From assembly GCA_029238935.1 (NCBI GenBank), contig JAQZBN010000018.1:1-64000 (forward strand): a stretch of DNA of 64,000 bases, written 5' to 3'. Under the pieces are notes generated by a model. The model searched no databases. It had not been told where the DNA came from and was given only the letters and a program-made list of their open reading frames with translations. A program made the translations under genes and the position numbers. Shown here piece by piece: positions 1 to 22,065 of the stretch; the stretch's first letter is position 1; each line of letters starts with the position of its first letter. The DNA is from Herbinix sp. (lineage in GTDB: Bacteria; Bacillota; Clostridia; Lachnospirales; Lachnospiraceae).

Positions 1-48
1 TCTTATAGAATAAAGGAGTATGTCAAGTGCGATGATGAATAGCAAAAT

Positions 49-250
49 TGTACATTCTTAACTGATCAAAAATGTACATTCTTATGTTGACATTTATAAA
101 TATGGTAAAGATAAAGACCCTTGAAAGCTTCGCTGTGAGTATATAACCAATTCTTCATCATATACAAATTTCTCTACTAACGAATTTATCGTACACCACG
201 CATAATTAACTGGTTGCATGATTTCTTTATTCATAAATATGTACATTCAT
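49..250. repeat. TGTACATTC direct repeats, possible IS end
   Basis: The 12-mer TGTACATTCTTA occurs at 49-60 and 73-84, 24 bp apart, and a related copy (TGTACATTCAT) lies at 240-250. Repeated short motifs of this type are typical of transposase-binding ends of IS21-like elements, so this may be the relic of such an end. No transposase of that family is recognisable in the window, so the assignment is tentative. Confidence 0.35.
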
Positions 251-305
251 TACCAGATGCGTTCGATTTTTCATTATAATTAGATTAATATAGCAAGTTA
301 AATAT

Positions 306-345
306 CAAAAAACCGCAACCCCTATAACGGATTACGGTTTATTTA
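306..345 (-). terminator. Intrinsic terminator, minus strand
   Basis: Read on the minus strand, AAACCG...CGGTTT arms form a stem of about 12 bp with two G-U pairs and a short loop, followed directly by a run of T. It lies about 430 bp downstream of the lipoprotein gene ending at 779 and may end that transcript or that of a lost gene. Confidence 0.55.
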
Positions 346-778
346 CTTAAAAATATCTAATTCTAACGTTTCATTTACAGTATTCAGCTTTTAGGTAGGA
401 ACTACTAGTTACTTCCTATCTGCTTTACTAGCCGACCGCGTAGATTTCCATATTATTCATGACACACTTTTATTTGTCGACGGTTGTCAGGCCATTTGAG
501 AATTTGCGAGCTGAGTCAAATTGCAAAGTAATAACCTCTTCTCTCTTAATGATTTATTAAGGCGGAAGTAACAAAAGTCAAGACTGCAGTAATGGATAAA
601 ACCTTTTTATGCAGTCTAACTTTATGCACAGATTGATTATGAGATATACTTCAATAATAAAATGCCCGGTATTGATCGATATTCTCTCTATTGACCTTGA
701 AAGCTATTGATTAACGTATATGGTAAGCATCAAGTTTGGCTTCAACATATTGTCGTAATTATATTATACACTGATGAA

Positions 779-1288
779 CTAGTAACCTAAAGTCTGCTCA
801 TTTACCTCTACTTGATTCTTAATATATGTAGTATCATATTTATAATAGCCAAGCTTATAGAAAAGATATTTTAGTTCAATATCATCGTCCTCGAAGCCTG
901 TTCCATAAAGAACGATATTGCTATCCATTTTTAAGTAATAGCTGCCTTCGCTACATCTTAACCAATACACCGAAGAACTATTTCCTGAGGTCGATACATT
1001 ATCCTTCTCATCTAATTCCTCACTGATGGTAGTGAACAGTTCTACTGCATCCTCTTCTGTCTCCATTTGATAATAAACAATATTGACGTCATGCATATTA
1101 CCCATTATAATCGTCGTTGCTTTTTCCGTATGAGGGTCAGAACTCAGTTCCACCACCTCACCTTTTATAGTAGTGAATATCTCTTGAAATTCATCCAGAC
1201 TTAAAGGCTCCGTTTTTTTAGTGTTACATCCCAATAAAGCTAACGATAATGTTAAAAACAATGTACAGCATAATACTTTCTTTTTCAT
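779..1288 (-). CDS. Putative lipoprotein, unknown function
   Basis: A 169-residue protein with a classic lipoprotein signal: KKK at residues 2-4, a hydrophobic stretch at about 5-20 and the lipobox LLGC with the lipidated Cys at about residue 21. The mature part is acidic and has no domain I recognise. It should be anchored on the outer face of the membrane. The start is supported by AAAGGAG about 8 nt upstream of the ATG. It is a single gene: a terminator-like palindrome (1527-1562) separates it from the gene upstream. No catalytic motif is visible, so no function is assigned. Confidence 0.75.
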   Translation of the reverse strand: MKKKVLCCTLFLTLSLALLGCNTKKTEPLSLDEFQEIFTTIKGEVVELSSDPHTEKATTIIMGNMHDVNIVYYQMETEEDAVELFTTISEELDEKDNVSTSGNSSSVYWLRCSEGSYYLKMDSNIVLYGTGFEDDDIELKYLFYKLGYYKYDTTYIKNQVEVNEQTLGY

Positions 1289-1590
1289 GATATCTTACTC
1301 CTTTTCTCTTTGTTATTCATTATTTCCGTTGGCTTTGTATATCTGTTCTATCGCATATTGTCCAACGGATATTTGTTTGTACTATATTAATCTTTGAAAT
1401 GATTGAAACACTCAAAAAGAAATGAAAATTTAAATTGTTCGCAATTTATTACTCATAAGTTTCGCATGATGAAGAAAGAGCCTGTTTTTAGGGATTGTTG
1501 AGATAAAGGATAGATACTCCTATAACGATAAAAAGAGTTTCGCTTACGAAACTCTTTTTATCGAGATTTATCGAGCGTGATGAATCTAAG
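1289..1590. other. Intergenic region with promoter elements and terminator
   Basis: It contains the leader of the lipoprotein gene and the terminator of the anti-sigma-like gene. A 7-bp inverted repeat (CCGTTGG at 1326-1332, CCAACGG at 1362-1368) flanks a TATACA-type -10 candidate on the minus strand, so it could be an operator. No gene is visible. Confidence 0.4.
1527..1562 (-). terminator. Strong bidirectional terminator
   Basis: A perfect 16-bp inverted repeat with a 4-nt loop (CTTA). Its arms carry A-runs and T-runs at the outer ends, so it works as a rho-independent terminator in either direction. It lies 28 bp past the stop of the anti-sigma-like gene and most likely ends the sigma/anti-sigma transcript. 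Confidence 0.85.
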
Positions 1591-2367
1591 CTAGACGTCC
1601 AGATAAAATATATATTCCCCTGACTGCAAATTCATGAAATTGATTTGATATACCCCGTCCTTATACTCTGCAACCTGGGCCAATGGCTCCATCTCCTTCT
1701 TATCTCCAATAAGAATTCCCATCGGGGGATTCTCCTGATAAGATGGTTTATTCTCCAGTTGTAAGGACAGCTGCATCTGATTACCATCTAATATTAGTCT
1801 GGTACCATTATTATCCGGAGCTACCAACAGATTGGACAAATTCATACTCTGTTTTATTTGTTCCAAAGACGATTTTTTCTCATCCGTACCCCCTCGCATT
1901 GCAAATGCTGGAATCGGCTCGAGTGTATTCAGAAGCGACAGTTGATCTTTCTTATTTAACATAAGAGAAGGGGTTTGCCACTTCTCGTTGTTATGGATCA
2001 TTCCGCTTAATTTGTTATATTTCTCATCCTTTAGATATACTTTAATGCTGCTCTCCATTTTGCCCCATTTATTTTTGATCCACTCTCTTATTCTGGCCTC
2101 CACCGATTTTCCAGATACCTTTATAAGAAGCTTATCAAGCTGATAACGTTCCAATAGCGCTTGTTCCAAGGACAAATAGCTCTCATACTCCCGAATAGAA
2201 AATTCATCCACTATCTGCCCGGCATAAAGCATCCTCTCATACTTGGCAGAACATTGCTCACACTCCATTAGATGCTCCGATATCCGTTCAAATCTGTCGG
2301 CATTATCATAGGAGTACTCTTGCATATCGATATATTCTCTTATCATCTCATAGGTTAGATGCTCCAC
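1591..2367 (-). CDS. Zinc-finger anti-sigma-like protein
   Basis: A 258-residue soluble protein. Near the N-terminus lies H32-x3-C36-x2-C39 (HLMECEQC), the zinc-binding signature of ZAS-type anti-sigma factors. No membrane helix is visible. The last 90 residues look beta-rich (DGVYQINF...GEYIFYLDV). It starts at GTG, with AAGGAG 9 nt upstream, 14 bp after the sigma-like gene, so the two should be co-transcribed and co-translated. Inference: it binds and restrains the sigma-like protein. Odd feature: residues 126-137 (NNEKWQTPSLML) are identical to residues 608-619 of the divergently encoded CHAT protein, and the DNA is nearly identical too. An alternative is a zinc-finger regulator that does not act on sigma. 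Confidence 0.65.
   Translation of the reverse strand: MEHLTYEMIREYIDMQEYSYDNADRFERISEHLMECEQCSAKYERMLYAGQIVDEFSIREYESYLSLEQALLERYQLDKLLIKVSGKSVEARIREWIKNKWGKMESSIKVYLKDEKYNKLSGMIHNNEKWQTPSLMLNKKDQLSLLNTLEPIPAFAMRGGTDEKKSSLEQIKQSMNLSNLLVAPDNNGTRLILDGNQMQLSLQLENKPSYQENPPMGILIGDKKEMEPLAQVAEYKDGVYQINFMNLQSGEYIFYLDV
1960..1994 (-). repeat. 35-nt repeat shared with CHAT gene (copy 1)
   Basis: On the minus strand this stretch matches 5239-5273 of the plus strand at 34 of 35 positions, including synonymous positions. Both copies are read in the same frame and encode NNEKWQTPSLML. The core is itself an imperfect palindrome (GAGAAG ... CTTCTC). Confidence 0.9.
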
Positions 2368-2381
2368 AGTTTTCTCACTCC

Positions 2382-3224
2382 TTAATCAAACTCATAACAG
2401 ATCTCATCCTTTAGCTTATTCCGAAATCGCAAGCTCCAATTCTCTAGGTCCTTTCGTTTAAATCTATCTCCAAATATGATATCACAGATTAATTGACCAA
2501 GCTCTTCTGACTCCATGCTGTCTTGAAAATCACTACCCCAGGATATCTTTCCAATCTTCACCCTTTTATTAAATTCATCAAGGAAGCGATCCGCACTATA
2601 CTGGATTGTATCAGCTTTCAATTCTTCAAAGGCCCAGGCAGGAGAACTCAGTTCCTTGGTCTTCGGATTGAACAGCTGGAATAAAACAATCGTATAACAG
2701 CATCCTACCGTCTTGTATGCTTTTTCTTTCTGATTCATGAGTATATGTACAAATCGTTTTAGCATTCCGATATGTTCCAGCTGGCTCTCGAGAGACAATA
2801 ATCTGTTCTCCGGTGTCATGATGGGTTCTTTGGTATGATTATATATAAGGTAATCGATTTTCTCATCCTCGTTGTAATCGTTGTCCTGATCGAATGCAAT
2901 CACAGCCATTGACTCACGTCTTCTTCGTTTCATATAATCAATTGCTTTATTTTTCGCAATCATGCAGCAATAACCAGCAAAGCTTTTACCCTGCTTTTTG
3001 TAATTTTTTAAGCCTGATTCTAAGATAACAAGCATTGTAATCTGAATTACCTCCTCAACATCCTCGAGAGCCGCTCGTCCTCCATTCCTAACTGTAATTT
3101 CAATTGTCCTTCTTATATATTGGTTCAAAAGTTCGAATAAATGGTTTCTATCCTTTAGAATCCCCGTTATGATTCCTTCATACTCTTGCTCAATTTCTTG
3201 TTTCAGCAGCTCATAATCAATCAC
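2382..3224 (-). CDS. Sigma-70 region 2-like protein
   Basis: A 280-residue protein. Residues about 30-105 resemble sigma-70/ECF region 2: the block EDVEEVIQITMLVILES, then the stretch SFAGYCCMIAKNKAIDYMKRR, which fits the core-binding and -10-recognition helices. The remaining 175 residues do not show a normal region 4 helix-turn-helix, which is unusual. The start is GTG, with GAGGTG 8 nt upstream. The next gene downstream is the zinc-finger anti-sigma-like protein, and a TPR-CHAT protein is divergent 195 bp away. Inference: an unusual ECF-like sigma factor, or a sigma-derived regulator, controlled by its downstream partner. The weak match outside region 2 leaves its promoter-recognition activity uncertain. 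Confidence 0.65.
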   Translation of the reverse strand: MIDYELLKQEIEQEYEGIITGILKDRNHLFELLNQYIRRTIEITVRNGGRAALEDVEEVIQITMLVILESGLKNYKKQGKSFAGYCCMIAKNKAIDYMKRRRRESMAVIAFDQDNDYNEDEKIDYLIYNHTKEPIMTPENRLLSLESQLEHIGMLKRFVHILMNQKEKAYKTVGCCYTIVLFQLFNPKTKELSSPAWAFEELKADTIQYSADRFLDEFNKRVKIGKISWGSDFQDSMESEELGQLICDIIFGDRFKRKDLENWSLRFRNKLKDEICYEFD

Positions 3225-3243
3225 TTAGTTAGTCACCTCATAC

Positions 3244-3249
3244 ATTATA
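3244..3249 (-). promoter_or_regulatory. -10 candidate of sigma/anti-sigma operon
   Basis: TATAAT on the minus strand, about 20 nt upstream of the GTG start of the sigma-like gene. No convincing -35 lies at the usual distance, so recognition by an alternative factor is possible. Confidence 0.35.
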
Positions 3250-3308
3250 ATATCATTAATATCAAAATTTTATCATTACAGGATGATTATTACAAGGCTT
3301 TATTGTTT

Positions 3309-3336
3309 TTTGACGAAATATGTTCTATGATAAAAT
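3309..3336 (+). promoter_or_regulatory. Promoter candidate of CHAT gene
   Basis: TTTGAC (3309-3314) and TAAAAT (3331-3336), 16 nt apart, lie about 85 nt upstream of the CHAT start codon on the plus strand. Confidence 0.45.
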
Positions 3337-3419
3337 AGTGTCCACAAATATCATAGTTTAACAATTGAAAGTATGCTTCGCGAACTTTCTCTTGTCATGA
3401 ATAAACGGTAGGAGAATTT

Positions 3420-6023
3420 ATGTCTGAAGCTAATCCAGGTTATTATTATTTACAATCAGCCAAAGCTGCTCATGCAACTGGAAATTTAATCAGCACAAAA
3501 GAGAATGCCACAGAGGCAGCCGGTTATTTCTACGGCAAGCCTGATCTTATTCTTGAATACTTAGACTGTATCACCCTATTACAGACAGTGGCTTCCATCA
3601 ATGGTAATCTGACGGAATATCAATCACTAGATTCCTTAGTCAAATCTGCCATTTTTCAATTATATGGCGACAAAGCACTCTGCTATTATGCCCTCCATCA
3701 ATATGACAGCAGTGAGTTCTATATGAACAGGGGCATGCTGGCAGACTCCGATCTTCTGATAACACAAGCGCATCATGCCTTATCGCAAGTATATGGAAGC
3801 CTTCCGGTTATAATATTCCAATATCACTATATTCGATCCCGGTATCTGTATTGTAACGAAGAATATTATAGCTGTATTGATTCCTGCCTGACTGTAAATG
3901 AGTTATGGATGGATCTGGAGGAGACAGATCTAGAGGATCATGGAGATGAGTTTCTAGCGACACTATATCAGAACAGATATCAAATCAGCCGAATGGGTCT
4001 TCTGAATACAATTCTACTAGCCTCCACTTATGGAAAGTTAAATAATAACGAAACTGGTATTCAAATTCTCCAAAGTATTCCGGAGTCTGAAAAACTTGAC
4101 TATTATATAAAATCTGCCATCGACTTAAACCTTGCCGAACTACATGCCAGAAATCGTAATTATCCGGAAGCTCTCCATCTGATGGAGCCATATAAGTTTG
4201 CCGATTACAGTAATTATCCGGATCTCGCTGCTTGTATCGACACCATCTATTTTGCTGTGAACTATTCGATCGGGTTCCAAAACGATGTACCTCTGAGATC
4301 ACCTTGGATAACAAAGATATCGGATACCATCAGTAATGATTATATGAAGCTTCATCGCTTTAATCTAGCTGTTGCAATGGCTTCCCAGGGGCATTACGAG
4401 GAAAGTCTGGCTCTCAGCTATGGAATAGGCAATAAAGGGTTGTCCCTGCGTATGGCTCTTTATCATGAGCTTAAATATTTTACCCTAATTCAAGATGATT
4501 TTCCCAAGGTTTGCAGCTATTACCTATCTGAAATAAACAATATCATTACACATTATAATGAAGAACTGGTCTATAACCATCTAAAAGCTTTGGAATATCA
4601 TATTTCCTTATGCCTGGGAGCTCTCCTATCGGAGGATTTAAAGAAAAGCCATTCCTGCTTAACCAGTGAACAGCTGTATGAGTTCTATCTGAATACTAAA
4701 GGTATCTCTCTTGAGAGATCCTATATCCATAGACAATATTCGGATGCTCAGGCTTTAAAGAATCGTAGCTTTACAAAGGTCCGGGACCTCCAAAGACGAA
4801 TTACTAATGATAGCCTATTGTTGGAGTATGCCCAGTCGCGTACTTTGAATGAAACCTATTACAGTATTTTTATAGTGAGTCATGATCAGGTTGATTATCT
4901 AAAGCTTGGTACAGAAGAGGAAATCAACGATTTACTTCAGAAATATCAGGATTATCTTCAGGATTATACCGGAAATCTGTATACAAAACAAGAAATCAAT
5001 GACCTTAGCTCCAAGCTAAGACGTAAACTGGTTCTTCCGCTGAGAAAATATTTAAGCAAAATCAATCGATTAATCATAGCTCCAGTCGGGGAGTTGTATC
5101 ATATCCCCTTTGAAGCTCTCACAATAAATTCCACCTCGGAGATGGGGAGTCTCTATCAGATTACTTATCTGAACATAGGACGGGAACTGGTACTTAGTTC
5201 TTACTCGAATAGTAATTATAATAATAAAAGTAGTAGTAATAACAATGAGAAGTGGCAAACCCCTTCTCTTATGCTGTCACACTCCCTTATCATAGGCAAT
5301 CCTAAGGTACACCAACTTCCCGATCTTCCCTTTGCTGCTCTGGAGACAAAATTCTTAGGAGAACTGGTTCAGGCAAAGGTGTATCATGGCAGCGAGGCAT
5401 CAGTCGACCTGTTTTACAATGATATTATGCAACCGCCTTTGCTTCATATTGCAGCACATGGTTTTTTTCGAGAGACAGTTAATTTGAGCAAAGCACCTGT
5501 ATCTGTCTCGGAAGTTTGCGGTGATCCCATGAAGGAGTGCGGTCTGTTTCTTGCGGATGAATATCCATTGACCGCCGATGAGATCTCCTCCTTTGACCTG
5601 TCTACCGTAGGGCTTTGCATTCTCTCCACCTGCTATTCCGGACTGGGGGAATGCAATGGTAATGAAGGCACCTTTGGTCTAAGGCGAGGCTTCTTTCTTG
5701 CCGGTTGCCATAGTCTGCTAATCAGTCTATGGAGTATTCATGACTTTTCCGGTATGCTTTTTATCAACTGCTTCTACGAGGGCATGATCCATATACAGCT
5801 TAATACCCTCGAGGCATTACAATATGCAAAACGAATTATGCGCAGCAGAACAATTAGTGATTGGAAGATCTATTGGCAGAAACTACTTAAGTCTACTGAT
5901 TCTGGAGAGTTATTAGCAGCTGTACAATCCTATTACTTACAGAATGATGATTATATCCCCTTTGAACATCCCTATCACTGGGCAGGGTTCCAATTAATCG
6001 GAAATCCGGTTTCCCTTCTGTAG
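3420..6023 (+). CDS. TPR-CHAT domain putative protease
   Basis: An 867-residue protein. The first 450 residues are helical, TPR-like repeats. The C-terminal 350 residues form a CHAT (caspase-like) domain: LIIAPVGELYHIPFEAL, then HIAAHGFF with the probable catalytic His680, LSTCYSG with the probable catalytic Cys738, and the terminal HPYHWAGFQLIGNP block. Both dyad residues are present, so an active cysteine protease is expected, with the repeats as sensor or substrate platform. The ATG is preceded by TAGGAG. It is divergent from the sigma-like/anti-sigma-like pair. Between the first CHAT strands and the His loop sits a low-complexity N/S linker and the peptide NNEKWQTPSLML (608-619), also present in the anti-sigma-like protein. 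CHAT proteases are known as effectors in type III-E CRISPR and gasdermin systems; neither context is present here. Confidence 0.85.
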   Translation: MSEANPGYYYLQSAKAAHATGNLISTKENATEAAGYFYGKPDLILEYLDCITLLQTVASINGNLTEYQSLDSLVKSAIFQLYGDKALCYYALHQYDSSEFYMNRGMLADSDLLITQAHHALSQVYGSLPVIIFQYHYIRSRYLYCNEEYYSCIDSCLTVNELWMDLEETDLEDHGDEFLATLYQNRYQISRMGLLNTILLASTYGKLNNNETGIQILQSIPESEKLDYYIKSAIDLNLAELHARNRNYPEALHLMEPYKFADYSNYPDLAACIDTIYFAVNYSIGFQNDVPLRSPWITKISDTISNDYMKLHRFNLAVAMASQGHYEESLALSYGIGNKGLSLRMALYHELKYFTLIQDDFPKVCSYYLSEINNIITHYNEELVYNHLKALEYHISLCLGALLSEDLKKSHSCLTSEQLYEFYLNTKGISLERSYIHRQYSDAQALKNRSFTKVRDLQRRITNDSLLLEYAQSRTLNETYYSIFIVSHDQVDYLKLGTEEEINDLLQKYQDYLQDYTGNLYTKQEINDLSSKLRRKLVLPLRKYLSKINRLIIAPVGELYHIPFEALTINSTSEMGSLYQITYLNIGRELVLSSYSNSNYNNKSSSNNNEKWQTPSLMLSHSLIIGNPKVHQLPDLPFAALETKFLGELVQAKVYHGSEASVDLFYNDIMQPPLLHIAAHGFFRETVNLSKAPVSVSEVCGDPMKECGLFLADEYPLTADEISSFDLSTVGLCILSTCYSGLGECNGNEGTFGLRRGFFLAGCHSLLISLWSIHDFSGMLFINCFYEGMIHIQLNTLEALQYAKRIMRSRTISDWKIYWQKLLKSTDSGELLAAVQSYYLQNDDYIPFEHPYHWAGFQLIGNPVSLL
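5239..5273 (+). repeat. 35-nt repeat shared with anti-sigma gene (copy 2)
   Basis: Same sequence as 1960-1994 on the opposite strand, with one internal mismatch (a synonymous Asn codon change). It sits directly after an Asn/Ser-rich stretch in a loop of the CHAT domain, a place that tolerates insertion. Confidence 0.9.
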
Positions 6024-6043
6024 TATTGTAAGGAAACCGGATT
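6003..6043 (+). other. Perfect 12-bp inverted repeat over CHAT stop codon
   Basis: The arms AATCCGGTTTCC (6003-6014) and GGAAACCGGATT (6032-6043) pair perfectly around a 17-nt loop that holds the TAG stop. There is no T-tract on either side, so it is not a typical rho-independent terminator. It may stabilise the mRNA end between the two convergent genes. Confidence 0.6.
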
Positions 6044-6111
6044 GATGCTCAAGGAATTGAAATAATCTATTGATCTGTATACATCGCTCCCATTCGTGTG
6101 ATACACTTTCA

Positions 6112-8250
6112 TTAATGCTTTCCATATAGTTCCTTTACATACTGATCCGCTTCCGGATGTCCATTAGTTTTCGCCTTGTCAAACATCCGCTTGGCTGCAT
6201 CAATATTCTTGGGAATTCGATATCCCTCCATATACAGCTTACCCATCTCAAATTGTGCATCAGCATAGCCCTGATCTGAAAGCCTGCGTAAAACCTCAAT
6301 TCCCTTCTGAAAAGAGGAGGTGTTGAGCATTTTCATAGCTTCCTGATAAGTCATCTCCATTGTAATAGCTGCATCTACTCTCTCAAATATTCGTTCAAAC
6401 CTTACACCAGTTAGCTTCCCCTGTTCAGCTTTCTTATAATAACGAAACGACTCTCTATAATTCTTCATCGTTCCATGTCCATAAAAATACATATCACCCA
6501 AGCATTTACATGCATAAAGATCGTTTTCTTCATCCGCTATTCTCTTGATAAAGACGAAATCATCGATATTTTTGCTTTCTGCGCGTTTGTCAAGAAATTG
6601 CTCCATTTTGTATCTGTTGGAATGTCCCGCCTTTTTAAAACATCGGTATGCCTCCATTAGGTTCTTCTTCCCAAGATAATCATGGCCGTAGATCTCCGCC
6701 AACTCCAGATATGCTAAGTCAAAATGCTGCGCAGCTGCCTTCTTATGCCACTTTTCAGCTTCATCTATATCTATATTTACCCCACGTCCATTCCGGTATA
6801 TTATTCCCAATGAATATTCTGCAGCTGCATAAGACTGAGCAGCAGATTTCTTAATCCAAACCAAAGCTTCAGCATTATTTTGTTCCACTCCATTTCCTTC
6901 CCAATAAGCAGTTCCCAGGCTGCATTGTGCAACCTTATCTCCCTTCATAGCCGATAGCTTTAACCATTTTACTGCTTCTGCATAATTCAACGAGACACCG
7001 TTCCCCGTATAATACAGATATCCCAAATTGCTTTGTGCTTGTACATGATCCTGCTCCGCAGCTTTTTTACAATACTTCACTGCTTCTGTCAGATCCTTAT
7101 TAATTCCTATACCATCTTGATAAGCCACGCTTAAGCAATATTGTGCATCACTATAACCTTTATCTGCAGATTGCTTGTAGTACTCTATTGCTTTTGATGT
7201 ATCCTTATTCACACCCAATCCTTCCTCATACATTCTACCCAGAAGAAATTGTCCCATTGGATCTTCTTGATCGGCAGCCTTTTGAAATAATTCTTTTGCC
7301 TTCTCAATATTAGATGATCGTAAATACTGACGACCTATAATAGCCTGAGCAGCTGCATGACCATGATTAGCAGCTCTTTCATAATATTCCATTGATTTTG
7401 AATTCGCCCTATTATTACTATTTTCTTCCAATTCATAGAATTGCCCTAAAAAAAACTCTCCCAGAGCATTTTTCTGTTCAGCTGATAATCTAATCCAATA
7501 CTTTGCCTCACTTAAGTCTTTCGGTACACCACGACCTTTCATGTATAAGTCACCCAGTTTAGCCTGGGCACGCGCATACCCCTGTTGTGCAGATTTCCAA
7601 TACCATATAGCAGCATAAGAAGGATCTTTTACAACATAATGACCATTTTCATATATCTCTCCGATCATACACTGCCCATAGGAATCACCCATATCGGCCG
7701 CTTCATTGGCTAGGGATAAGGCTTTTTTTTCATCCTTTTCTACTCCCAAACCCTCTAGGTACATCCTTGCGATCCCCGCTTTACCCCTACTTCCTCCAAG
7801 TTTAACAACCTTTTGAAATAGTTCGTATGCTTTTGAATAATTTCGCTCACCATCTGTATTCTCAAGATATTTCCATGCCGTATTAATTATCAGATTTATA
7901 TCATCACTGGGGCTTTGATAAGTATTCTCATCGCTGGGTTTTCTATGTTCCTCTTCCCCCCCTATTGAGGTTTCTGCACTTTGGTCTTCGGGTGTTCCTG
8001 TTTTCGTCCTTGTCAATCCAGTTGAGATACGTTTTATCGTCCAACTAATTAACTTTAAAGCTTTTTCAATATCATCAATATCTCTTTCCAGCTGTTTCTC
8101 TAGTTCCTCATCATGTAAGGTCTTGTTTGCTCTGTGCTGGATGACGTCTAATTGTTTAATCAACTGCAGTTGTTTCTGCTCCAGTTCGTCTTTGATTGTA
8201 TATATATTCTGGTTCGGTTTGATTCCAAGTCGTATCAGTATTTCTTCCAT
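6112..8250 (-). CDS. Sel1-repeat protein (712 aa)
   Basis: Residues 1-85 form a charged helical module beginning MEEILIRLGIKPN and containing ISWTIKRISTGL. After an acidic linker (about 90-120), about 13 Sel1-like repeats of roughly 36 residues follow, with cores such as GDLYMKGRGVPKD and GTAYWEGNGVEQN. Such repeats are protein-binding scaffolds; no enzyme motif is seen. There is no signal peptide, so it should be cytosolic. AGGAGG precedes the ATG. It is the last gene of the operon with the three-module AAA+ protein (72 bp upstream), Hsp70 and a second Sel1 protein whose N-terminus is similar. Inference: an adaptor or substrate receptor for the Hsp70/AAA+ machinery. Its N-terminus recalls the first helices of a J-domain but lacks HPD. 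Confidence 0.8.
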   Translation of the reverse strand: MEEILIRLGIKPNQNIYTIKDELEQKQLQLIKQLDVIQHRANKTLHDEELEKQLERDIDDIEKALKLISWTIKRISTGLTRTKTGTPEDQSAETSIGGEEEHRKPSDENTYQSPSDDINLIINTAWKYLENTDGERNYSKAYELFQKVVKLGGSRGKAGIARMYLEGLGVEKDEKKALSLANEAADMGDSYGQCMIGEIYENGHYVVKDPSYAAIWYWKSAQQGYARAQAKLGDLYMKGRGVPKDLSEAKYWIRLSAEQKNALGEFFLGQFYELEENSNNRANSKSMEYYERAANHGHAAAQAIIGRQYLRSSNIEKAKELFQKAADQEDPMGQFLLGRMYEEGLGVNKDTSKAIEYYKQSADKGYSDAQYCLSVAYQDGIGINKDLTEAVKYCKKAAEQDHVQAQSNLGYLYYTGNGVSLNYAEAVKWLKLSAMKGDKVAQCSLGTAYWEGNGVEQNNAEALVWIKKSAAQSYAAAEYSLGIIYRNGRGVNIDIDEAEKWHKKAAAQHFDLAYLELAEIYGHDYLGKKNLMEAYRCFKKAGHSNRYKMEQFLDKRAESKNIDDFVFIKRIADEENDLYACKCLGDMYFYGHGTMKNYRESFRYYKKAEQGKLTGVRFERIFERVDAAITMEMTYQEAMKMLNTSSFQKGIEVLRRLSDQGYADAQFEMGKLYMEGYRIPKNIDAAKRMFDKAKTNGHPEADQYVKELYGKH

Positions 8251-8322
8251 ATTTATCCTCCTACTTGCCTATACCTGCGAACTTGCGCGTCAGCACAAAC
8301 TTGCTGATTGAAAAACAGTATT

Positions 8323-11300
8323 TTATTTAAAATCTTCTTTGATAATTGTGGTGAATTGTTCTCTGGTAATAGAGCCTGTCTCCAGATCAAATAGACGCAG
8401 CGCTTGCTTCCGAAGCACTTCTTCATAAAGATTTCGCACTCCTCTGGCATTACCAAAGTCGGTATTCTTCTGTAACTCCTCCGATATTCTTTGCTCAATG
8501 AAGCTCTCCAGTTCTTCCTCCACAATAAGATGATCAGCTTCAGCCATATAATAGAAGATACATCTTAACTCCTCAACGGTATAATCCTCGAATATAATTT
8601 GAGTCGCCATGCGGCTTTTTAGTCCTTGGTTCGTACCAAAAAATTCCTCAATTCTATCTTGGTAACCAGCCATAATTACCATAAGATTATCTCGTTTATC
8701 CTCTATTGCTTTTAGGAGTGTACTTACGATTTCCGTGCCAAAATCATCATTACTTCCGTGGCATAAATCATATGCCTCATCGATAAAAAGTATACCACCT
8801 TCGGCCTCTTTTACCTTATCCTCAACCTTCTTTGTGGTATGTCCCTGATACTGGCCAATTAATCCCGCCCTTGAACATTCCACAAATATATCACCATTTT
8901 TGAGTACCCCCAGTTTCTCATAAATCTGCCCAATCAGCCTTGCTACTGTTGTCTTACCGGTTCCTGCATTTCCAAGGAATACTAGATGAAGTGAGCCAAA
9001 TTTATTATTGATTTTATAGTTTAATACCTCGCTCATTTGCTTGCGCTTTATCAATGCAACCATTTCGCGCACCTTTCTCTTTACACTTGCCAAACCGGTC
9101 ATATTCTCCAGCTCTATCATGAGCTCATCTATAGTTTTTTCCTTCACCGATTTCTGGTTAATTACCGCTTCGATATCCTGCACCTTGACAATATCATAAT
9201 CATTTCTGCTTAGAATCTCACCCTCCGATTTCATTTCCATCAGCCGCCGTTCCATAGATGCCTTCACCTTCTCCACTAGATTCCGAATGCCTCTCGCGTT
9301 ACCAAAATCTTTCTTCCCGGATTTCTCTTTGATTAACCTATAGATCGCATCTATCGTATTTCTATCTAATAGCATTCCTTTTTCCCGAACTATATAATTA
9401 AATATATCTACCATTTCATCAACAGTATAATCTTCGAAAAGAATCTCATTAGGGAAGCGACTTACCAATCCCGGATTGTGCGAAATCAGTTCGTCGATTT
9501 CCTCTGAATACCCAGCCAGAATTACCATAATCGAATCTCTGTAATTTTCGATATCTGCAACCAGCGTAGATAATGCTTCGAGTCCAAAGGAATCTCCCTG
9601 TCCCTGCACCAGAGAATAGGCCTCGTCGATAAACAGAACCCCGCCCAGGGCTTCTATAACTTTGTCGTGAGTTTTCTTGGCTGTATGACCCTGATACTCT
9701 CCGACCAGATCCTTCCTTGAACACTCAACAAATACATTACCCTTGGGTAACACACCAAGCTTCTGATAGATCTTCCCTATGATACGTGCCACTGTAGTTT
9801 TTCCAGTACCAGGTCCACCCTTGAATAACATATGAAGTGTACCAAAGCCCTCACTTCGTTTTGCACCGAGCTCAATTGCATTCTGTTGCACAATTACTCC
9901 ATCAATTTTACTGCGTACCTCTTTTTTAACGTTTACTAAACCAGTAAGCCCGTCCAGTTTATTTAAGAGCTCCTCGATGCTCTCACCTACAGTATCCTCT
10001 ACCTCAAAATCTTCTTCTTCAAACTGCAAAAGCGCACCCATGCTATCTTCATAATCATTTGCTTTATGTCTCTCTGCTTTGCGTTTTATAGCATCCTGAA
10101 GAACTGCCTCCAAGGTAATTGCATTAGCAAACTCCTCAGTGCATCGTTCTGTTTGAATTCGTTTTCTGAGTACTTTATAAGCAGATTGTTTTATCACAAA
10201 GCCTTTTTCACCGGCTAACCTACAGGTTAATTCAACCAATTCATCCGTTGTATATCCGGGAATATCTAGTCTGCAGTATACCTGGTTTCTCATTTCTTCA
10301 CTTACAAATTCATCAATAGCAGTCTTAGTTCCTGTAATAGCAAAAGCCAGGGAGTCTTTGCGAGCCTTCATCAATTCAACAATCCCCTCAGCTAGAGCGG
10401 AGTCTGGTTCTTTCTTTTCTGAATCCTCGAATAACCTGTCGATATGATCAATAATAACAACCATATTCTTCAATTTAGAGAATAGCTCCACTAAACCATT
10501 CGTCCCGCCTTTTGAAAAAGCTTCTTGAACCTCTCTGGCGTTAACCTCCATAATGGAAGCACTGTCAATTAATCCAAACATTTCGAGCAATGATGCCAAA
10601 ATCCCAGCTACTAGGGATTTACCTGATCCTTTCTCTCCGGTGATAAGAAAATTCTTAATCAAAATATCTTCTCCCACCCCAAGACTTCTAATCTGATTTT
10701 GGTACTGGAGAACATCATAGAAGGATTGCAGCCCTTCCTTAACCTGTTGCATCCCAATCACTTGTTCAAATAGCAGTTCAATTGATTGGGTGATCTGTTT
10801 TTTATCCTTTGATTTTTTTGTATTATTCTGAAACAGCTTAAGAAGAGCGGGATTTGTTTTCCCTTGTTCTAGCTGTTCCTCCTGTAACGGCTTTATAATA
10901 ACCTTCTCTTTTGAACCAGTCATCATAGCTGTTCCTTTGTTGCCTGCAATCGTCTCCATTACTGCAGATGTTTTAATACTCCTGCCATAGATTATTGTAC
11001 GTATCGTATCATTTTTTACGAATTCGCTTATAGTTCCTTCCTTAATCACTTCAAGCAATGAATTCGCATACTCCAGATATTGTTCCTGAGTAGAAAACCG
11101 AAGAACTTTCTTTATAAGCTTTTTTGCATCTCCAAGCTTTCCTTGCTTGATATAGAGTTCAGACAGCTCTATAAGATGCAAGTCATATAGTTCTTCTTCA
11201 ACATAGGTAATCAGAACAGCTACCAGTTTTTCCTCGGAACTCTTCTCACTAAGCATTTTCTCATATAAAATCATTCTTTGCTGATTGTCCGACAAATCTG

Positions 11301-11586
11301 ATTCCAATGCTTTTTGGTATAATTTATCCCAATCCTTACTACCCCGCCATGTAATTCGGTATAATTCCGAAATAGGAGTAAAAATATCCTCTCCCGATCC
11401 AAGCTCCATCGATCTTAGGTACCATTGAATGCTTTTTTCATAAAGCCTTAAATAAGAATAAACTTCAGCGATACTTAAGACAGTGTCTATTTTCTCTTCC
11501 TGCTCCGGTTCCAGTTTATCTGCCATAACTGCAATCTCGTTATACTTCTCTAAACCTCTTAGTCTGATGATTTCACTTTGTTCCAT
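8323..11586 (-). CDS. Triple-AAA+ ATPase, CbxX/SpoVK-like
   Basis: A 1087-residue cytosolic protein. Residues 1-190 are TPR-like helices. Three AAA+ modules follow: AAA1 with Walker A GEKGSGKS (317-324) and Walker B-like VVIIDHID (376-383); AAA2 with GGPGTGKTT (590-598), FIDEA (652-656) and the GNAR element (762-765); AAA3 with GNAGTGKTT (872-880), FIDEA (934-938) and GNAR (1045-1048). AAA2 and AAA3 belong to the CbxX/CfqX-SpoVK group, which form hexameric remodelling machines such as Rubisco activase CbbX. AAA1 is divergent. The start has a strong SD (GTGAGGAGAG). It lies 19 bp after the Hsp70 gene. Inference: a dedicated unfoldase or remodeller working with Hsp70 and the Sel1 proteins. It is much longer than SpoVK and is unlikely to be the sporulation protein. 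Confidence 0.85.
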   Translation of the reverse strand: MEQSEIIRLRGLEKYNEIAVMADKLEPEQEEKIDTVLSIAEVYSYLRLYEKSIQWYLRSMELGSGEDIFTPISELYRITWRGSKDWDKLYQKALESDLSDNQQRMILYEKMLSEKSSEEKLVAVLITYVEEELYDLHLIELSELYIKQGKLGDAKKLIKKVLRFSTQEQYLEYANSLLEVIKEGTISEFVKNDTIRTIIYGRSIKTSAVMETIAGNKGTAMMTGSKEKVIIKPLQEEQLEQGKTNPALLKLFQNNTKKSKDKKQITQSIELLFEQVIGMQQVKEGLQSFYDVLQYQNQIRSLGVGEDILIKNFLITGEKGSGKSLVAGILASLLEMFGLIDSASIMEVNAREVQEAFSKGGTNGLVELFSKLKNMVVIIDHIDRLFEDSEKKEPDSALAEGIVELMKARKDSLAFAITGTKTAIDEFVSEEMRNQVYCRLDIPGYTTDELVELTCRLAGEKGFVIKQSAYKVLRKRIQTERCTEEFANAITLEAVLQDAIKRKAERHKANDYEDSMGALLQFEEEDFEVEDTVGESIEELLNKLDGLTGLVNVKKEVRSKIDGVIVQQNAIELGAKRSEGFGTLHMLFKGGPGTGKTTVARIIGKIYQKLGVLPKGNVFVECSRKDLVGEYQGHTAKKTHDKVIEALGGVLFIDEAYSLVQGQGDSFGLEALSTLVADIENYRDSIMVILAGYSEEIDELISHNPGLVSRFPNEILFEDYTVDEMVDIFNYIVREKGMLLDRNTIDAIYRLIKEKSGKKDFGNARGIRNLVEKVKASMERRLMEMKSEGEILSRNDYDIVKVQDIEAVINQKSVKEKTIDELMIELENMTGLASVKRKVREMVALIKRKQMSEVLNYKINNKFGSLHLVFLGNAGTGKTTVARLIGQIYEKLGVLKNGDIFVECSRAGLIGQYQGHTTKKVEDKVKEAEGGILFIDEAYDLCHGSNDDFGTEIVSTLLKAIEDKRDNLMVIMAGYQDRIEEFFGTNQGLKSRMATQIIFEDYTVEELRCIFYYMAEADHLIVEEELESFIEQRISEELQKNTDFGNARGVRNLYEEVLRKQALRLFDLETGSITREQFTTIIKEDFK

Positions 11587-11604
11587 TTCATATCTCTCCT
11601 CACT

Positions 11605-13101
11605 CTAGAATACTGTTTTCTGAGACATGATACCTTGCAGCTTCTTAAGCTCTTCTTCACCTAAATTTGCATTACGCTCCATCTCAAATTCCTTCTCAAG
11701 CTTAACCGCTGGAACAGCAATCGATAAATGAATTAACTGTCTTTCATCCAGGCCTATTTTAATCGTAACCTCGGTATTAATAGGTAAGCCAGATGGCAAA
11801 TCTATCATAAATTCTCCAATGAGAGTAACATAGTCCAGTTCTTTGTATTCCCCTTCTGTGATACTGAGATTTATCTGCCTCTGACCACTAATCTTCGTAT
11901 AAAAGATCTGTTCCTTTGTACAGGGAATCTGAGACATTCGCGGTATGATAATCTGGTTTTCCTGGTGGATTTCATCCACAAAAACCAGGATTCCAATGCT
12001 ATGGGAGCAGACATCCTGAAATATTACTTTGTCCGTCTTAAATTTTTTTTGATAAATTGAACCATATAACGCGGCTCCTAATGCAACGGCCTCATCGGGA
12101 TTCACTTCCCTTGACGGTGCTTTACCAAACAGCTCCTCAAGCCTTTTACTCACATAGGGAATTTTACTGGAGCCCCCGACAAGCAATATCTTATCGATTT
12201 GTTCTGTCCGAATTCCAGAATTTCTTAATATCTTTTTAATGATATTCTCGGTCTTATTATAGGTTGCTTCAATCTTAGCTTCAAAGAATTCTCTGGTTAT
12301 TTCTAATTGCTCCTTTACCCCATCAATCTTCATATTAATGCTTGCTTTTTCACGGACGGTTAATTGTTTTTTACAGCTTTCAGCCTTATGAAATAATTCG
12401 TTATACTCAGCTCGATACTCTTCTTCCTCTAGATCAATTCCGTGCTGATCCTCAAAATATTGACATACATAATCCACGAGAAATTGATCAAACATGGTTC
12501 CTCCCGCTTTCGAAAGGCCATCCTTCTCGATTATACGAATTTTGTCATTCTCAATTTCCATTAGCGTTGCATCAAAGGTACCACCGCCAAAATCATAGAC
12601 TAGTATCTTAGCTTTATCCAGTTTGTTTTTATATGTATAATAAATTGCTGCTGCGGTAGGCTCATCGATTATTGTTAATAGATTTACACCGGCCAGCCTT
12701 ACAGCATCCTCTGTCGCTTTTCTTTGGGAATCCATGAAATAAGCAGGTACTGTTACGATTACATCTTGGATTACATCTCCAAGGTTGGCAGATGCGTCTT
12801 GAACCACTTTTTTAATAATTAAGCTTGATATGACTTCCGGCGTATATTCAATCTGATCGATTGTCTTGATTACTTTTCTCTTCCCCATATCCACTTTCAC
12901 TTTAGCAACTACATCCTCTGCATACATAACCTCATTCTCTTTTGCTATTTCTCCAACGATAATCTGACCACCCTCATCAAAGAAAACAACCGAAGGTGTT
13001 AATCTCTGAGATTCACTGTTAATAATAATCTGCGGTTCTCCGTTTTCATCAATAAATGCTCCGGCAGAAAATGTCGTTCCTAAGTCAATACCTAAAACCA
13101 T
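11605..13101 (-). CDS. Hsp70-family chaperone without lid
   Basis: A 498-residue DnaK-like protein, shorter than DnaK (about 610). The ATPase domain is complete: phosphate-1 DLGTT (6-10), TVPAYF (117-122), DEPTAAA (146-152), phosphate-2 DFGGGTFD (170-177) and the adenosine motif LLVGGSS (306-312). A reduced beta substrate-binding domain spans about 365-475; the helical lid and the C-terminal tail are missing. It should be an active ATPase with altered client handling. AGGAGG lies before the ATG. It is flanked by a possible GrpE-like gene upstream and the triple AAA+ gene downstream. It is not the housekeeping dnaK, since no hrcA/dnaJ surrounds it and the C-terminus differs. Confidence 0.9.
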   Translation of the reverse strand: MVLGIDLGTTFSAGAFIDENGEPQIIINSESQRLTPSVVFFDEGGQIIVGEIAKENEVMYAEDVVAKVKVDMGKRKVIKTIDQIEYTPEVISSLIIKKVVQDASANLGDVIQDVIVTVPAYFMDSQRKATEDAVRLAGVNLLTIIDEPTAAAIYYTYKNKLDKAKILVYDFGGGTFDATLMEIENDKIRIIEKDGLSKAGGTMFDQFLVDYVCQYFEDQHGIDLEEEEYRAEYNELFHKAESCKKQLTVREKASINMKIDGVKEQLEITREFFEAKIEATYNKTENIIKKILRNSGIRTEQIDKILLVGGSSKIPYVSKRLEELFGKAPSREVNPDEAVALGAALYGSIYQKKFKTDKVIFQDVCSHSIGILVFVDEIHQENQIIIPRMSQIPCTKEQIFYTKISGQRQINLSITEGEYKELDYVTLIGEFMIDLPSGLPINTEVTIKIGLDERQLIHLSIAVPAVKLEKEFEMERNANLGEEELKKLQGIMSQKTVF

Positions 13102-13152
13102 TTCTTATCCTCCTAGTAAAAACAAAACTCTCTATAATGATAATAATTTAAG

Positions 13153-14001
13153 TTAAATAATTGTATTAACAATACCATCCTTATAAATGACACAATATGC
13201 ATCAATGTATATCTCCAGAGTGAGAAAATCTGACCTGTCTGCATAATCAAAATATAAATCGTATCCTCTTTTTAGGTGCTCAGCCAGCTTGGGATCCTCT
13301 TCATTAACCGCCATATCCTCTCTTCTGTATATAGGAGTTCCCGGACGGCTTATTACCCCACACTCCATTAGATAATTCTCCATATCAGAGCGGTATATAA
13401 AAGTAAGTAACTCATTAATTCGGGTGTTTTCTTTACCTAATTGTTCTAATTTTTCTTGTATTCTTTTCTCTAAATCATCGATGATAGGATTGTGTGTCAG
13501 TTCATGGTTATTATTCTGTTGTGAGGATACCTCAAATGCTTGATTCTCTCTCTCTTCCTTAGTTATCTCAAATTTATTTTCTTTTCTATTCGTTATAGAC
13601 TCTTCCAAGCTCCAAGTATTTCCCTCTAAACCTTGGTTCTCTTTATCCTTCTGGTTATCCCCTTCAAATCGTTGAACTTCCTCATAACCCACATTCTCCT
13701 TATCATCAGGAGGATTATTTTCATTCGCTGCAGACCTGCAGGCAACCTGTTCTTGATTATTATCTTCATAATGATCATAGCTAATGGCAGTCTGTTCTCT
13801 CCGCAATAAATCCAGTTCTAATAACAGTTCTTGTAATTCTATCAAGTTCTTTATGTATGTTCTAGATCGTGGTCTACGCAGCTCTCTAAGTTTATCGTCG
13901 TTGTTCGGATTAACAGTAGGTCCGGTCAAAGGAGTAACGGTTCTTGCAGGAAGCTTAATCGTCTTGTTATTTGATTCGGATGTTTGTATTCTATTTAGCA
14001 T
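13153..14001 (-). CDS. Possible GrpE-like partner of Hsp70
   Basis: A 282-residue protein. The N-terminal half is polar and low-complexity, rich in Asn, Glu and Lys. A coiled coil follows at about 175-205 (DDLEKRIQEKLEQLGKEN), then a short globular part with MECGVISRPGTPIYRRED. The layout of coiled coil, helices and a final beta region with a G-V-x(4)-G-x-P segment recalls GrpE nucleotide-exchange factors, and the gene lies directly upstream of the Hsp70 gene, 51 bp away. The match is weak and the call is inference. The start at 14001 is chosen because GAGGGAAG precedes that ATG; an ATG seven codons upstream has no ribosome site. The alternative is a hypothetical adaptor. Confidence 0.5.
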   Translation of the reverse strand: MLNRIQTSESNNKTIKLPARTVTPLTGPTVNPNNDDKLRELRRPRSRTYIKNLIELQELLLELDLLRREQTAISYDHYEDNNQEQVACRSAANENNPPDDKENVGYEEVQRFEGDNQKDKENQGLEGNTWSLEESITNRKENKFEITKEERENQAFEVSSQQNNNHELTHNPIIDDLEKRIQEKLEQLGKENTRINELLTFIYRSDMENYLMECGVISRPGTPIYRREDMAVNEEDPKLAEHLKRGYDLYFDYADRSDFLTLEIYIDAYCVIYKDGIVNTII

Positions 14002-14114
14002 ATTCTTCCCTCTATCTTTCATTTCTATCGAATTATTTTCAATTTATTATCTAATTTTAGCAAACAACAAGTAATTAACATCTGCTGATTAATATAACAG
14101 CATTTCCTCAAAAA

Positions 14115-17100
14115 CTATTCCTCGTAAACATGTAGTAATTTCATACCCATTATTCTGCTCTTTGCTTTCAGCATACCTTTCTGAGCAGCTTTTCTAAAGT
14201 AGTCAGACGCTTTGCGATAATCCTTTTTCATCTCTTTCCCACTTATATAGATATCGCCGAGTACATATAGGACTTCCGGATCTTCATCAAGCTTCCCTAA
14301 TTCCAATAGCTCAGCAGCTTCTTTATAGTTTTTCTGTACGCCAAGTCCCTCATAATACATTAAGCCAAGCTCCCGATATGCCTCTTTATCACTCTGCTTC
14401 TCTATAAGCTTCCTATAGATCTCTGTGGCTTTACCATAATCCCGTTTTGTACCATTTCCTTTTCTATAGTACTCAGCTAGTTGGATCGTAATAACTCCTT
14501 CCTTTGATGCCCGCAAAAACCATTGAAAAGCCTTATCTAAATCACCAACTTTTTCATAACATTCGGCAATATGTATTTCTGGTACTTTTAAGCCCTTGGG
14601 TTCGCCTAACTTCACGGCCTCCTCGTACCATTTAGCTGCATTTCTATAATCTGGTGGGGTAATGCTTTCATACAGGTAAGCCAACTGCATTATTGAACTA
14701 GTATCCTCTTTCACTGCAGCCTTACTGAACCAATACACAGCTTTGTTTATGTCCTGTTTAACATTATATCCGAAAAGATAGATCGCCGCTGTGATTCTTT
14801 GTGCTTCAATTTTTCCGTTTTCAGCATTAAGCTCAAGCTCTTTCACTCGAATACCTATATCTTTACTAGTATATTCGTTATCAAAATCGTAAAGATATTT
14901 AAAAGTTTGTTGTGCAATTCGTCTGTATGCAACTCGTTCATTATACCCTCTCAAAGCTTCATCAACGTAACATTTTGTAATTGATTTTTCACTACTCATA
15001 TCATAAACAACTGTGATTCCATATTTAAACTTTTCATCAGTATATACGCACGCCCCCTTATACCAGTGAGCTGCATCTTCCCTACTTATAAAAGACAATC
15101 TGTCTTTAAGATATAAGTCACCCAAATGAACCATTGCATTATAATCATATTTCTCAGCTGCCGCTGTGAACCATTTTATTGCCTCGACATAATCTCTTTC
15201 TACTCCGGTACCATAATAATATTTCTCAGCCAGATCATGCTGAGCATATTTATTCCCACCTATTGCTGACATTTTCAAAAACTCAATTGCTTTTTTAATA
15301 TCTTTCGTATTGTATGTTCCATATTTATCTTCATAAATATCCGCCAGCCGCTTTTGAGCTTCGGTATCCCCATGTTCTGATGCCTGGTTAAACCATTTAA
15401 TCGCCTCTGCTAGGTCGCTAGTTACACCTTCTCCCCTTAGATACATTTCTCCAATTTGAAACTGCGGTTTTGTGTCTCCCTGCATTACAGCCTTTAAAAA
15501 ATATTTTATCGCTTGAACATATTTTTTGTCCTTATAATAAAAATCACCTAGTTTTGTACTAGCTATAGCAATATTTCCATCAGAGGCACTGCTATATAAT
15601 TTTTTTGCTTGTTCTAAATCTTCCTTTACACCATACCCCTTTTCATACAATTTTCCAAGATGGTACATCGCTTTTGCATTATTTTGATTGGCAGCCTTTT
15701 GATAATAATCTGATGCAATTTTATTCGACTCTTCATAGACATAATTTTTTTCATACATCATTCCTAGTATAAATAGGGCATCAGCATTCCCTAAATCTGC
15801 CGCTTTTTGATACCACTTTTTGGCTTCTCTTTCTACATGTCTATTCTTGTACACAGAGCCAAGTATTATAGATGCTTTTATACAGTCAGACTCCGCTGCG
15901 AAGGTAATCCAGTTAATCACTTCTTTAGTGCCCTGTTGCTCACATTGATATTCCGTTACAGCTTTTCCTGAATTGCTTCTGATAAAGTTCAGCTTTAAAC
16001 TGACTGAATTCATAGCCAATTCTTCTGCCTTAGAATAATATCTCAAAGCTTCGTCGATATTTTCTGTCGTTCCAAGACCGAAATATGACATATCTCCAAG
16101 ACGCTCATATACAACACCTTGATTAGAATCGTTTAAGTTCTCCAGTTTATGATAGCACTTATAAGCAGAAGTAAAATCCTGCTTAACTCCTAAGCCGCTC
16201 CAATACATTTCCCCAAGTTTATAGTTTACTTCCAGATATCCTTCCTCGGAAGCATTCTTAAAACAACGGAAAGCTTCAGAATAGTCTTGCTTTGTTTCAT
16301 GCCCATAATAATACAAATCCCCTAATATCTTAATTACTTCCAAGGAATACTTACCATGTTCTATTAGCTTATTACATTGATTAAAAGCTTTTAAATATTC
16401 TTTCCTTTCGTAATATATACTACAGAGATAACCTTCTGAATCTAACATACTATTATGATCAGCCATCATGAAATACTTAACTGCTTTTTCATATTCTTTA
16501 TTTACCACATCACCCTTATAGTATAGCTTACCCAAATGGTAGCATGCTTCCGCATTACCTTTATTAGCTGCTTTTTCCAACCAATATATACCTTTTTCTA
16601 TATCTTGTTTTACATTATCTCCCAGACATAACATCATTCCAAGGCTAAACATGGCCTTTACTTCTTCTGAGCCAGATGCCTTCATAAACCACTCTAATGC
16701 CTCAGAAGTGTTTCTTTCGCTTGTTCCTTTATACAGAGTTCTCTCTCTGCCTAGTAAATACTGTGCTTTACTATTGCCTTGTTCTGCAGCTTTCAGAAAT
16801 AATTCGAGGTTATTATTGACAATGTTAATATATTCCTGAGCATAACATTGTTCGATTACAAATTCTATTGCTTTTTGATGTCCTTGTTCTGCCGCCTTTA
16901 ATAACCAGTGAATCGCAGAAGAATCATTTTTATTTAAAAAGGAGCAGCCCACTTTATATTGGTTCTCCACATCTCCCTGTGAAGCTGCTTTCTCATACCA
17001 ATACCTGGACTTTACTTCATTTTGGTCAACACCGTCACCTAGTTCATACATTCTTCCAAGCATAAGTTGACTATCTAAGCTCCCCTTCGTAGCTGCTTTA

Positions 17101-17567: not shown

Positions 17568-17597
17568 TATACTTCTCCACCTTTTACCAAATATCAC

Positions 17598-17851
17598 TTC
17601 CTATGTTATAATATACCAAAACATAAAATTAAGATTATTATATCACAGACAACAGAAAAATAAAATATTATGGTAATTCAATTTGTGTCATTTTAACTCA
17701 ACCCAACTCATTTCAACTTATTTCTACTTATTTGAACTCATGTCAAGCCAAGTTTCCATCCAAATAATATAACCTTCAGCTCAGAGCTTATTGATGTATT
17801 GATTTACTTAATGGCTCAAGAGCCAAATGGAGTGAACAATAGGCCATCAAC
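17598..17851. other. Intergenic region between VirD4-like and Sel1 genes
   Basis: It holds the promoter of the Sel1 operon, degenerate 10-bp direct repeats of an ACTCATTTCA type (about 17694-17741) and a small hairpin TGGCT-CAAG-AGCCA (17813-17826) without a T-run. No gene is seen. Confidence 0.4.
17637..17645 (-). promoter_or_regulatory. Extended -10 of Sel1/Hsp70/AAA+ operon
   Basis: On the minus strand TGATATAAT, an extended -10 (TGn-TATAAT), lies about 70 nt upstream of the Sel1 start codon. A strong -35 is not seen, as is usual for extended -10 promoters. Confidence 0.5.
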
Positions 17852-19204: not shown

Positions 19205-19243
19205 ATAGCTTCATCCTTTCTTTCCTTACCATTAATCGGTCAA

Positions 19244-20749: not shown

Positions 20750-20990
20750 CTTTACTGTCCCATTTGCTTTGCTAACTTCCAATAGGATGCATCTAGGTAA
20801 TATCAACTTCCTTGGTTTTTTTGCTTCCTTAGGAAGCAGCATCTACAATTGATTACATTCCTATTTGCTTTGTTAACTTCCAAGAGGAAGTAGCATTTAC
20901 ACTTTGATTACATTCCCATTTGCTTTGCTAACTTCCAAGAGGAAGTAGCATTTACACTTTGATTACATTCCCATTTGCTTTGCTACTTCC
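20750..20990. repeat. 55-bp tandem repeats derived from tsf 3' end
   Basis: The sequence encoding the last residues of EF-Ts plus the stop recurs downstream. The block beginning ACATTC at 20965 (inside tsf) is repeated at 20910 and 20855, an exact 55-bp period, and a more diverged copy starts near 20755. Each extra unit also has an ACTTCC-AAGA-GGAAGT hairpin or a diverged form such as GCTTCC-TTA-GGAAGC. The repeats lie outside the reading frame, after the stop. Confidence 0.85.
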
Positions 20991-21895: not shown

Positions 21896-22065
21896 TGTAT
21901 ATCCCTCCATTATTTGTATAAAGATATATTGATCTGAGTGTCAAAAGTTATAGCGTCATAAACACCATAGACAAAATGTATTTAAAAGGCATTGCTTTTT
22001 ATTCATTTGTCACATCATCTTCGATAATGTAGTCTTAGACACTGTAATCATTATTCCAGTTCTAT

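Follow-up and report, generated by a model that had tools for sequence, protein, structure and literature searches.

A peptide shared by a CHAT protein and an anti-sigma-like protein of Herbinix sp. is probably the translation of a small dispersed palindromic element

Why do a CHAT protein and an anti-sigma-like protein, encoded close together in Herbinix sp., contain the same 12-residue peptide? The peptide, NNEKWQTPSLML, occupies residues 126-137 of the anti-sigma-like protein and residues 608-619 of the CHAT protein, and both genes lie near the start of the 64,000-nt stretch analysed here (contig JAQZBN010000018.1, positions 1 to 64,000; hereafter the window). The reading we favour, with a probability of roughly 0.8, is that the peptide arises by translation of a small palindromic DNA element dispersed in this genus. 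The genes and element copies concerned are:

1591..2367, minus strand: anti-sigma-like protein, 258 aa, with an H-x3-C-x2-C motif (HLMECEQC) read from the sequence
2382..3224, minus strand: sigma-70 region 2 protein, 280 aa (PF04542, E 7.1e-7)
3420..6023, plus strand: CHAT protein, 867 aa (PF12770, E 2.3e-45, C-terminal residues 529-862)
1956..1991, minus strand: element copy 1, 36-nt core ACAACGA...TCTTATGTTAA, in frame in the anti-sigma-like gene in the region of residues 126-137, an exact match to the ends pattern described below
5239..5279, plus strand: element copy 2, in frame in the CHAT gene, with 5239-5273 common to copy 1 and a 3' end not of the family type

The 35-mers encoding the peptide, at 1960-1994 (minus) and 5239-5273 (plus), are alike at 34 of 35 bases, and the sequence confirmed both this match and the shared peptide as an earlier note on this DNA had given them. 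The two copies are inverted and 3.2 kb apart. Identity of the peptide exceeds that of the DNA by one codon, leucine being TTA in one gene and CTG in the other, and none of the three base differences over the 12 codons alters a residue. The longest exact repeat was 27 bases, compared with 16-19 in 20 first-order Markov sequences of 64 kb, so that a chance origin of the pair is excluded. The earlier note had offered two explanations, a cleavage or docking site shared by protease and target, or a small palindromic repeat inserted in frame with GAGAAG...CTTCTC at its core. The latter motif is the stem of the element's hairpin, and copy 1 continues past the 35-mer, its 36-nt core with the family ends lying at 1956-1991. 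A search of the genome with the 35-mer, which the note had proposed, found only these two copies; neither a 71-base query containing the 35-mer nor a 22-base core with up to three mismatches located a third in the 5.37-Mb draft (157 contigs, contamination 8.08%; the other assemblies used are mostly drafts too). A count of exact 35-mers would, however, miss the family, whose copies differ in stem sequence.

As defined from the copies found, the element has a core of 36-39 nt with constant ends, ACAACGA at the 5' side and TCTTATGTTAA at the 3' side, and an internal hairpin whose stem varies in sequence yet stays mostly paired. Degenerate patterns of the stem recovered two copies in the genome itself (G000), one each in G032 and G014 besides these two among 34 genomes of the genus, and, among 397 genomes of the family, the same two plus two off-target matches, against two with a reversed control. 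The conclusion that no family exists, drawn from stem-based patterns, was overturned by a pattern of the fixed ends with a free middle of 18 nt and at most two mismatches, applied to 99 genomes. This pattern gave 59 matches, 52 with two mismatches, three with one and four with none. All four mismatch-free matches belong to the same genus (the anti-sigma copy itself, one from G008 and two from G032), and their middles are all palindromic and differ in sequence, although the pattern leaves the middle unconstrained; about 0.04 such matches would be expected, as estimated from the two-mismatch matches with equal base frequencies. The G032 copy C5 had already been found by BLAST, and two of the perfect copies are therefore new and independent. 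One two-mismatch match in G032 (C248) is of the same palindromic kind as the perfect copies.

An alignment, A5, of the four mismatch-free copies, the C248 match and the CHAT copy showed pairing in 91.7% of 72 cells, compared with 80.3% in shuffles (none of 500 reached the observed value) and 33-49% when the alignment was slid. Five of the 12 pairs were changed on both sides, and the covariation score was reached by 0/500 shuffles. A covariance model built from these six rows (R1) was used to scan 52 pieces of G032 (442 kb), four of which had been picked for their ends-pattern matches. R1 recovered the three training copies and four new copies of a 39-nt subfamily, ACAACGAGTG...CACTCTTATGTTAA (E 7.8e-4, 3.4e-3, 0.093 and 0.16), all four from the other 48 pieces (~404 kb). 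The hairpin in G014, which lay outside the training set and was first found by BLAST, matched R1 at E 4.3e-5. A second model, R2, was built from 11 rows that included the four new copies (E 1e-6 to 4e-5), copy 1 (1994-1954, 58.6 bits, E 5.2e-11) and copy 2 (52.3 bits), so these scores are those of training rows; one further weak R2 match in G032 (L153, E 0.015) was not counted. In sum, 11 copies were found in four genomes, seven in the 442 kb of G032, two in G000, one in G008 and a weaker one in G014.

The element is present between genes and, in three cases found, in frame within genes. The C5 copy stands directly before a lipoprotein-like gene, and the G008 copy overlaps, in another frame, a 77-codon open frame of uncertain reality. 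The length of the core is divisible by three, between one and four of the six frames are open in every one of the 11 copies, and the NE...LML frame is open in 7/11 copies and carries a stop in the other four. By eye, a terminator-like hairpin follows within ~20 nt on the 3' side in four of six extragenic G032 copies (L106, L107, L161 and L126).

Covarying stems and this proximity to terminator-like hairpins are also what might be seen if the element were a conserved cis-acting hairpin (a binding site, RNA processing or 3'-end element) that is not mobile, the coding copies being sites that happen to fall within genes. The anti-sigma copy moreover terminates in TTATGTTAAAT (1954-1964, minus strand; the only exact match in the window), a sequence identical to a XerD half-site of dif. 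With one mismatch, however, this half-site occurs at chance frequency (6 matches versus 5.7 expected), and the dif core CATAA-N6-TTATG gave two matches, both away from the element, versus 5.6 expected. Window positions 1-20000 had no Rfam match at E <=1, and the longer and shorter gene alleles described next look like insertion. We therefore regard a fixed cis-acting hairpin as unlikely.

The earlier note had also proposed an alignment of orthologues. The anti-sigma orthologue search was positive in 1/60 other relatives, and 396 other genomes of the family yielded five weak partial matches (E 8e-4 to 7e-3). The orthologue in G020 is 62% identical, colinear on both sides of the segment and 12 residues shorter than that of G000. 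For the CHAT protein, an orthologue was found in 1/33 other genomes of the genus (E <=1e-5), in 0/199 others of the family (1e-10) and in 0/372 others of the order (1e-40), and a collection of genome contigs held one CHAT locus, to judge by its length and position the same record as G030. This G030 protein is 48% identical and has a linker of 13 aa, compared with 29 aa here. The segment is thus absent from both nearest orthologues, but neither genome shows an intact pair. No CHAT match was found in the G020 genome, where the anti-sigma gene contains an in-frame TAG stop and adjoins a sigma gene that appears truncated by eye, so that the G020 relative of the locus (L047:294-2187) looks decayed; a lipoprotein-like gene follows the anti-sigma gene. 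The C-terminal half of sigma there follows a Sel1-like start in one open frame.

A third coding copy lies in an unrelated gene:

G032 L162:1147-1190, minus strand: element copy in an open frame matching 5-formyltetrahydrofolate cyclo-ligases

Against solved structures this frame matched 1ydm best (E 2.6e-20), and the three structure alignments shown have 10, 10 and 7 gap positions at the element. The G000 orthologue (L058, 43% identical) reads VYVPKVTDKRIEFYRI where the G032 enzyme reads VFVPRVEYNECHASQDTLMLKEMNFYQI; the latter is 12 residues longer, and the extra residues are those of the element. R2 detected no element in the G000 stretch holding L058, and a second homologue (L088) is 11 residues shorter than the G032 enzyme. 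The copy in the folate enzyme reads NECHASQDTLML, all three coding copies share strand and frame (NE...LML), and the peptide therefore belongs to the element, not to the protease. With paired stems that differ among copies of the genus and one copy in frame in an unrelated gene, the suggestion of a small palindromic in-frame repeat was right in kind.

These observations also bear on the proposal of a shared cleavage or docking site. Here one 12-residue sequence, present both in the anti-sigma-like protein and in the interdomain linker of the CHAT protein, would be cut or bound by the latter, cleavage freeing sigma, and would have been copied or kept for that purpose. The set of CHAT, sigma and anti-sigma-like proteins resembles Csx29, CASP-sigma and Csx30 of Craspase, as presented in an excerpt of PMC10028731, where the sigma inhibitor is cleaved by the tetratricopeptide repeat (TPR)-CHAT protease within a small flexible loop, the size of which is important. 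Copy 2 sits in a linker preceding LIIGNP, upstream of the block with His680 and Cys738, both conserved in an alignment with G030 and six plasmid CHAT proteins; HIAAHG and LSTCYSG fall in conserved columns, and these residues are, by analogy, the catalytic ones. No difference between the window copies changes the peptide, whereas 17 of the 99 single substitutions possible over 11 codons would be silent, but three differences are too few for a test; they leave a small chance that the peptide has some functional relevance and are the only positive evidence for such a site. Against it stand the membership of the segment in a repeat family with a coding copy in a folate enzyme, and its absence from both nearest orthologues, with the reservation already made about intact pairs. 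According to part of the text of PMC11106740, moreover, Craspase orthologues cut at non-conserved sites (A|S, L|D, M|K). The same excerpts report that one orthologue tolerates single substitutions around the cut site, that in two others some changes, above all at P1, lower cutting, and that in the family position seems weightier than sequence (PMC11106740). Although the locus may, by analogy, work like Craspase, the shared peptide needs no protease-substrate explanation, and we consider one very unlikely. Still less credible is a combination of the two ideas, in which a translated mobile palindrome of the size of repetitive extragenic palindromic (REP) sequences, in Clostridia, gave a CHAT protease and a sigma inhibitor one loop by double insertion and was afterwards retained for cleavage or docking, making a protease-substrate pair from one repeat. 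An identical peptide in two neighbouring proteins is, on its own, no evidence of interaction.

If the peptide derives from a dispersed element, which of the two copies came first? In five columns of A5 the two window copies disagree and all four outside copies have one base in common. At four of these columns, all within the core, the family base is found in the anti-sigma copy, and at the fifth (column 41, outside the core) in the CHAT copy. The window copies are identical at 35/41 columns, compared with at most 29/41 between either and any outside A5 copy, and their stem was found in no other known copy. The CHAT copy probably derives from the anti-sigma copy or a close sister, because it shares the stem of that copy but its 3' end is not of the family type, whereas the anti-sigma copy has the family ends. 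Under the dispersed-element reading, a copy would have entered the anti-sigma-like gene, and the second, in the divergent CHAT gene 3.2 kb away, would most likely have arisen from it or a sister, either by a second insertion or by a short-range copying event such as a template switch. A gene could absorb the element as an extra loop because of the core length and the open frames present in every copy, and the two proteins most likely do not share a function for the peptide. As a separate candidate, the CHAT linker was considered as the native source of the segment and rejected, since it aligned with homologous linkers no better than shuffles did (560/1000 reached the summed score).

Could local copying account for everything, the 35-mer having passed from gene to gene by a replication template switch, with no family and a merely coincidental likeness to other hairpins? 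Two copies are known in the genome, inverted and 3.2 kb apart, and they form the sole inverted pair with at least 20 exact bases and more than 100 bases apart among the matches listed when 340 kb of its sequence was compared, each stretch against itself. Template switching is known to alter yeast proteins, according to an excerpt of PMC8604942. Copies with identical ends and other stems nevertheless exist, and while local copying may explain how the second copy arose, we give it only a slim chance of being the whole explanation. The inverted arrangement also raises the prospect of an inversion switch, in which recombination between the copies would flip the intervening segment and give two in-frame chimeras, one joining the N-terminal part of the CHAT protein to the anti-sigma tail and the other the anti-sigma head to the catalytic CHAT part. 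In-silico inversion left both frames open (745 and 391 codons, stop to stop), and short, partly coding inverted repeats act as an inversion switch in Ureaplasma, as described in part of PMC3047005. No recombinase domain was detected by Pfam among the 11 proteins at 0.8-20 kb, however, the orthologues keep the present order on both sides of the segment, and shared strand and frame have a chance of about one in three to six by our estimate, so that we consider a switch extremely improbable.

Several results weigh against the dispersed-element reading we prefer. With 64 matches, the reversed control pattern gave no fewer than the 59 of the ends pattern, so most of the latter are chance; the case for a family rests on the mismatch-free matches, the mismatch breakdown of the control's 64 not being shown. 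In A5, changes on both sides of pairs were matched by 26/500 shuffles and the number of pair types by 215/500. R1 scores two of the four new G032 copies weakly, and their R2 E-values are circular. R2 applied to 986 kb of the own genome (18%) yielded the window copies only, and whole-genome patterns of the 36-nt form revealed no further copy with a palindromic middle, the 39-nt form not having been sought genome-wide. Two copies in neighbouring genes with none other found in the genome are odd for a mobile family. Neither a transposase nor a target-site duplication was identified for the element. The 36-nt gap relative to the G020 anti-sigma gene has 11 equal-best placements, of which one is the exact 36-nt core, and the edges of the insertion are thus left unfixed, whilst the CHAT linker is 16 aa longer than that of G030, more than the element supplies.

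Phages and plasmids gave matches of E 0.09 and 0.9, the phage one lying under an annotated terminator, and three patterns had no match in viral contigs. A literature search listed no description of such a family, which does not prove that it is undescribed.

With regard to the host locus, the sigma gene stands between the anti-sigma-like gene and the CHAT gene, which is divergent from it. The sigma protein matched the type III-E CRISPR sigma model weakly (20.9 bits, cut-off 100). The H-x3-C-x2-C motif presumably links the anti-sigma-like protein to zinc-binding anti-sigma factors; Pfam (E <=0.001) and NCBIfam (E <=0.01) gave no match for the protein, and NEDD8 was its sole match among solved structures (E 0.73-0.89). 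The CHAT protein matched no solved structure by sequence at E <=0.01, and AlphaFold2 models of both proteins were poor (mean pLDDT 39.8 and 40.5). The cluster at 1591-20101 also encodes two Sel1-repeat proteins, Hsp70, a VirD4/TraG-like ATPase and a large AAA+ protein with three AAA stretches (SpoVK/CbbX-like), and could be a chaperone or conflict module. Further along, at 20758-20985, a 57-base direct repeat with 55-base spacing and a partial third copy sits at the 3' end region of a gene (20963-21910) that by eye encodes elongation factor Ts.

How does the element compare with known systems? The likeness to Craspase (Csx29/Csx30/CASP-sigma) is one of locus, not of repeat. In both, a CHAT protease, a sigma factor and a possible sigma inhibitor adjoin, and the CHAT protein here has the conserved His and Cys within PF12770, their catalytic role being assigned by analogy; unlike in Craspase, no CRISPR effector was found by Pfam among the 11 proteins at 0.8-20 kb. 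REP sequences are mobilised by RAYT transposases and are mostly extragenic. The element resembles them in size, imperfect hairpin and fixed flanks but differs in that no RAYT was identified, a motif scan for this Y1 transposase over the stretches fetched, a small part of each genome, returning one unrelated-looking candidate. Miniature inverted-repeat transposable elements (MITEs) with open reading frames, such as Correia, ERIC and YPAL, are ~100-200 bp long and fused in frame to genes, and most of the listed families have terminal inverted repeats and target-site duplications (PMC2229807). The element is likewise a small repeat fused in frame to genes, although it is shorter, and its gap placement relative to G020 is ambiguous for a target-site duplication.

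Palindromic repeats that are translated within protein genes are known mainly from Rickettsia and Wolbachia. A far shorter one in Clostridia, whose ends are constant, whose stems covary and which some genes carry and others lack, would offer a compact and tractable example of repeats adding loops to proteins. Rickettsia palindromic elements (RPEs), to which the earlier note had compared the repeat, are dispersed palindromes of 105-146 bp present between genes and in frame inside protein genes, as set out in an excerpt of PMC2229807. The element shares with them its occurrence at several places per genome (seven copies in 442 kb of G032, two known in G000) and its in-frame presence in three protein genes. 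It is not itself an RPE, since its core of 36-39 nt is about three to four times shorter, its stems are variable, and it belongs to the class Clostridia, in another phylum.

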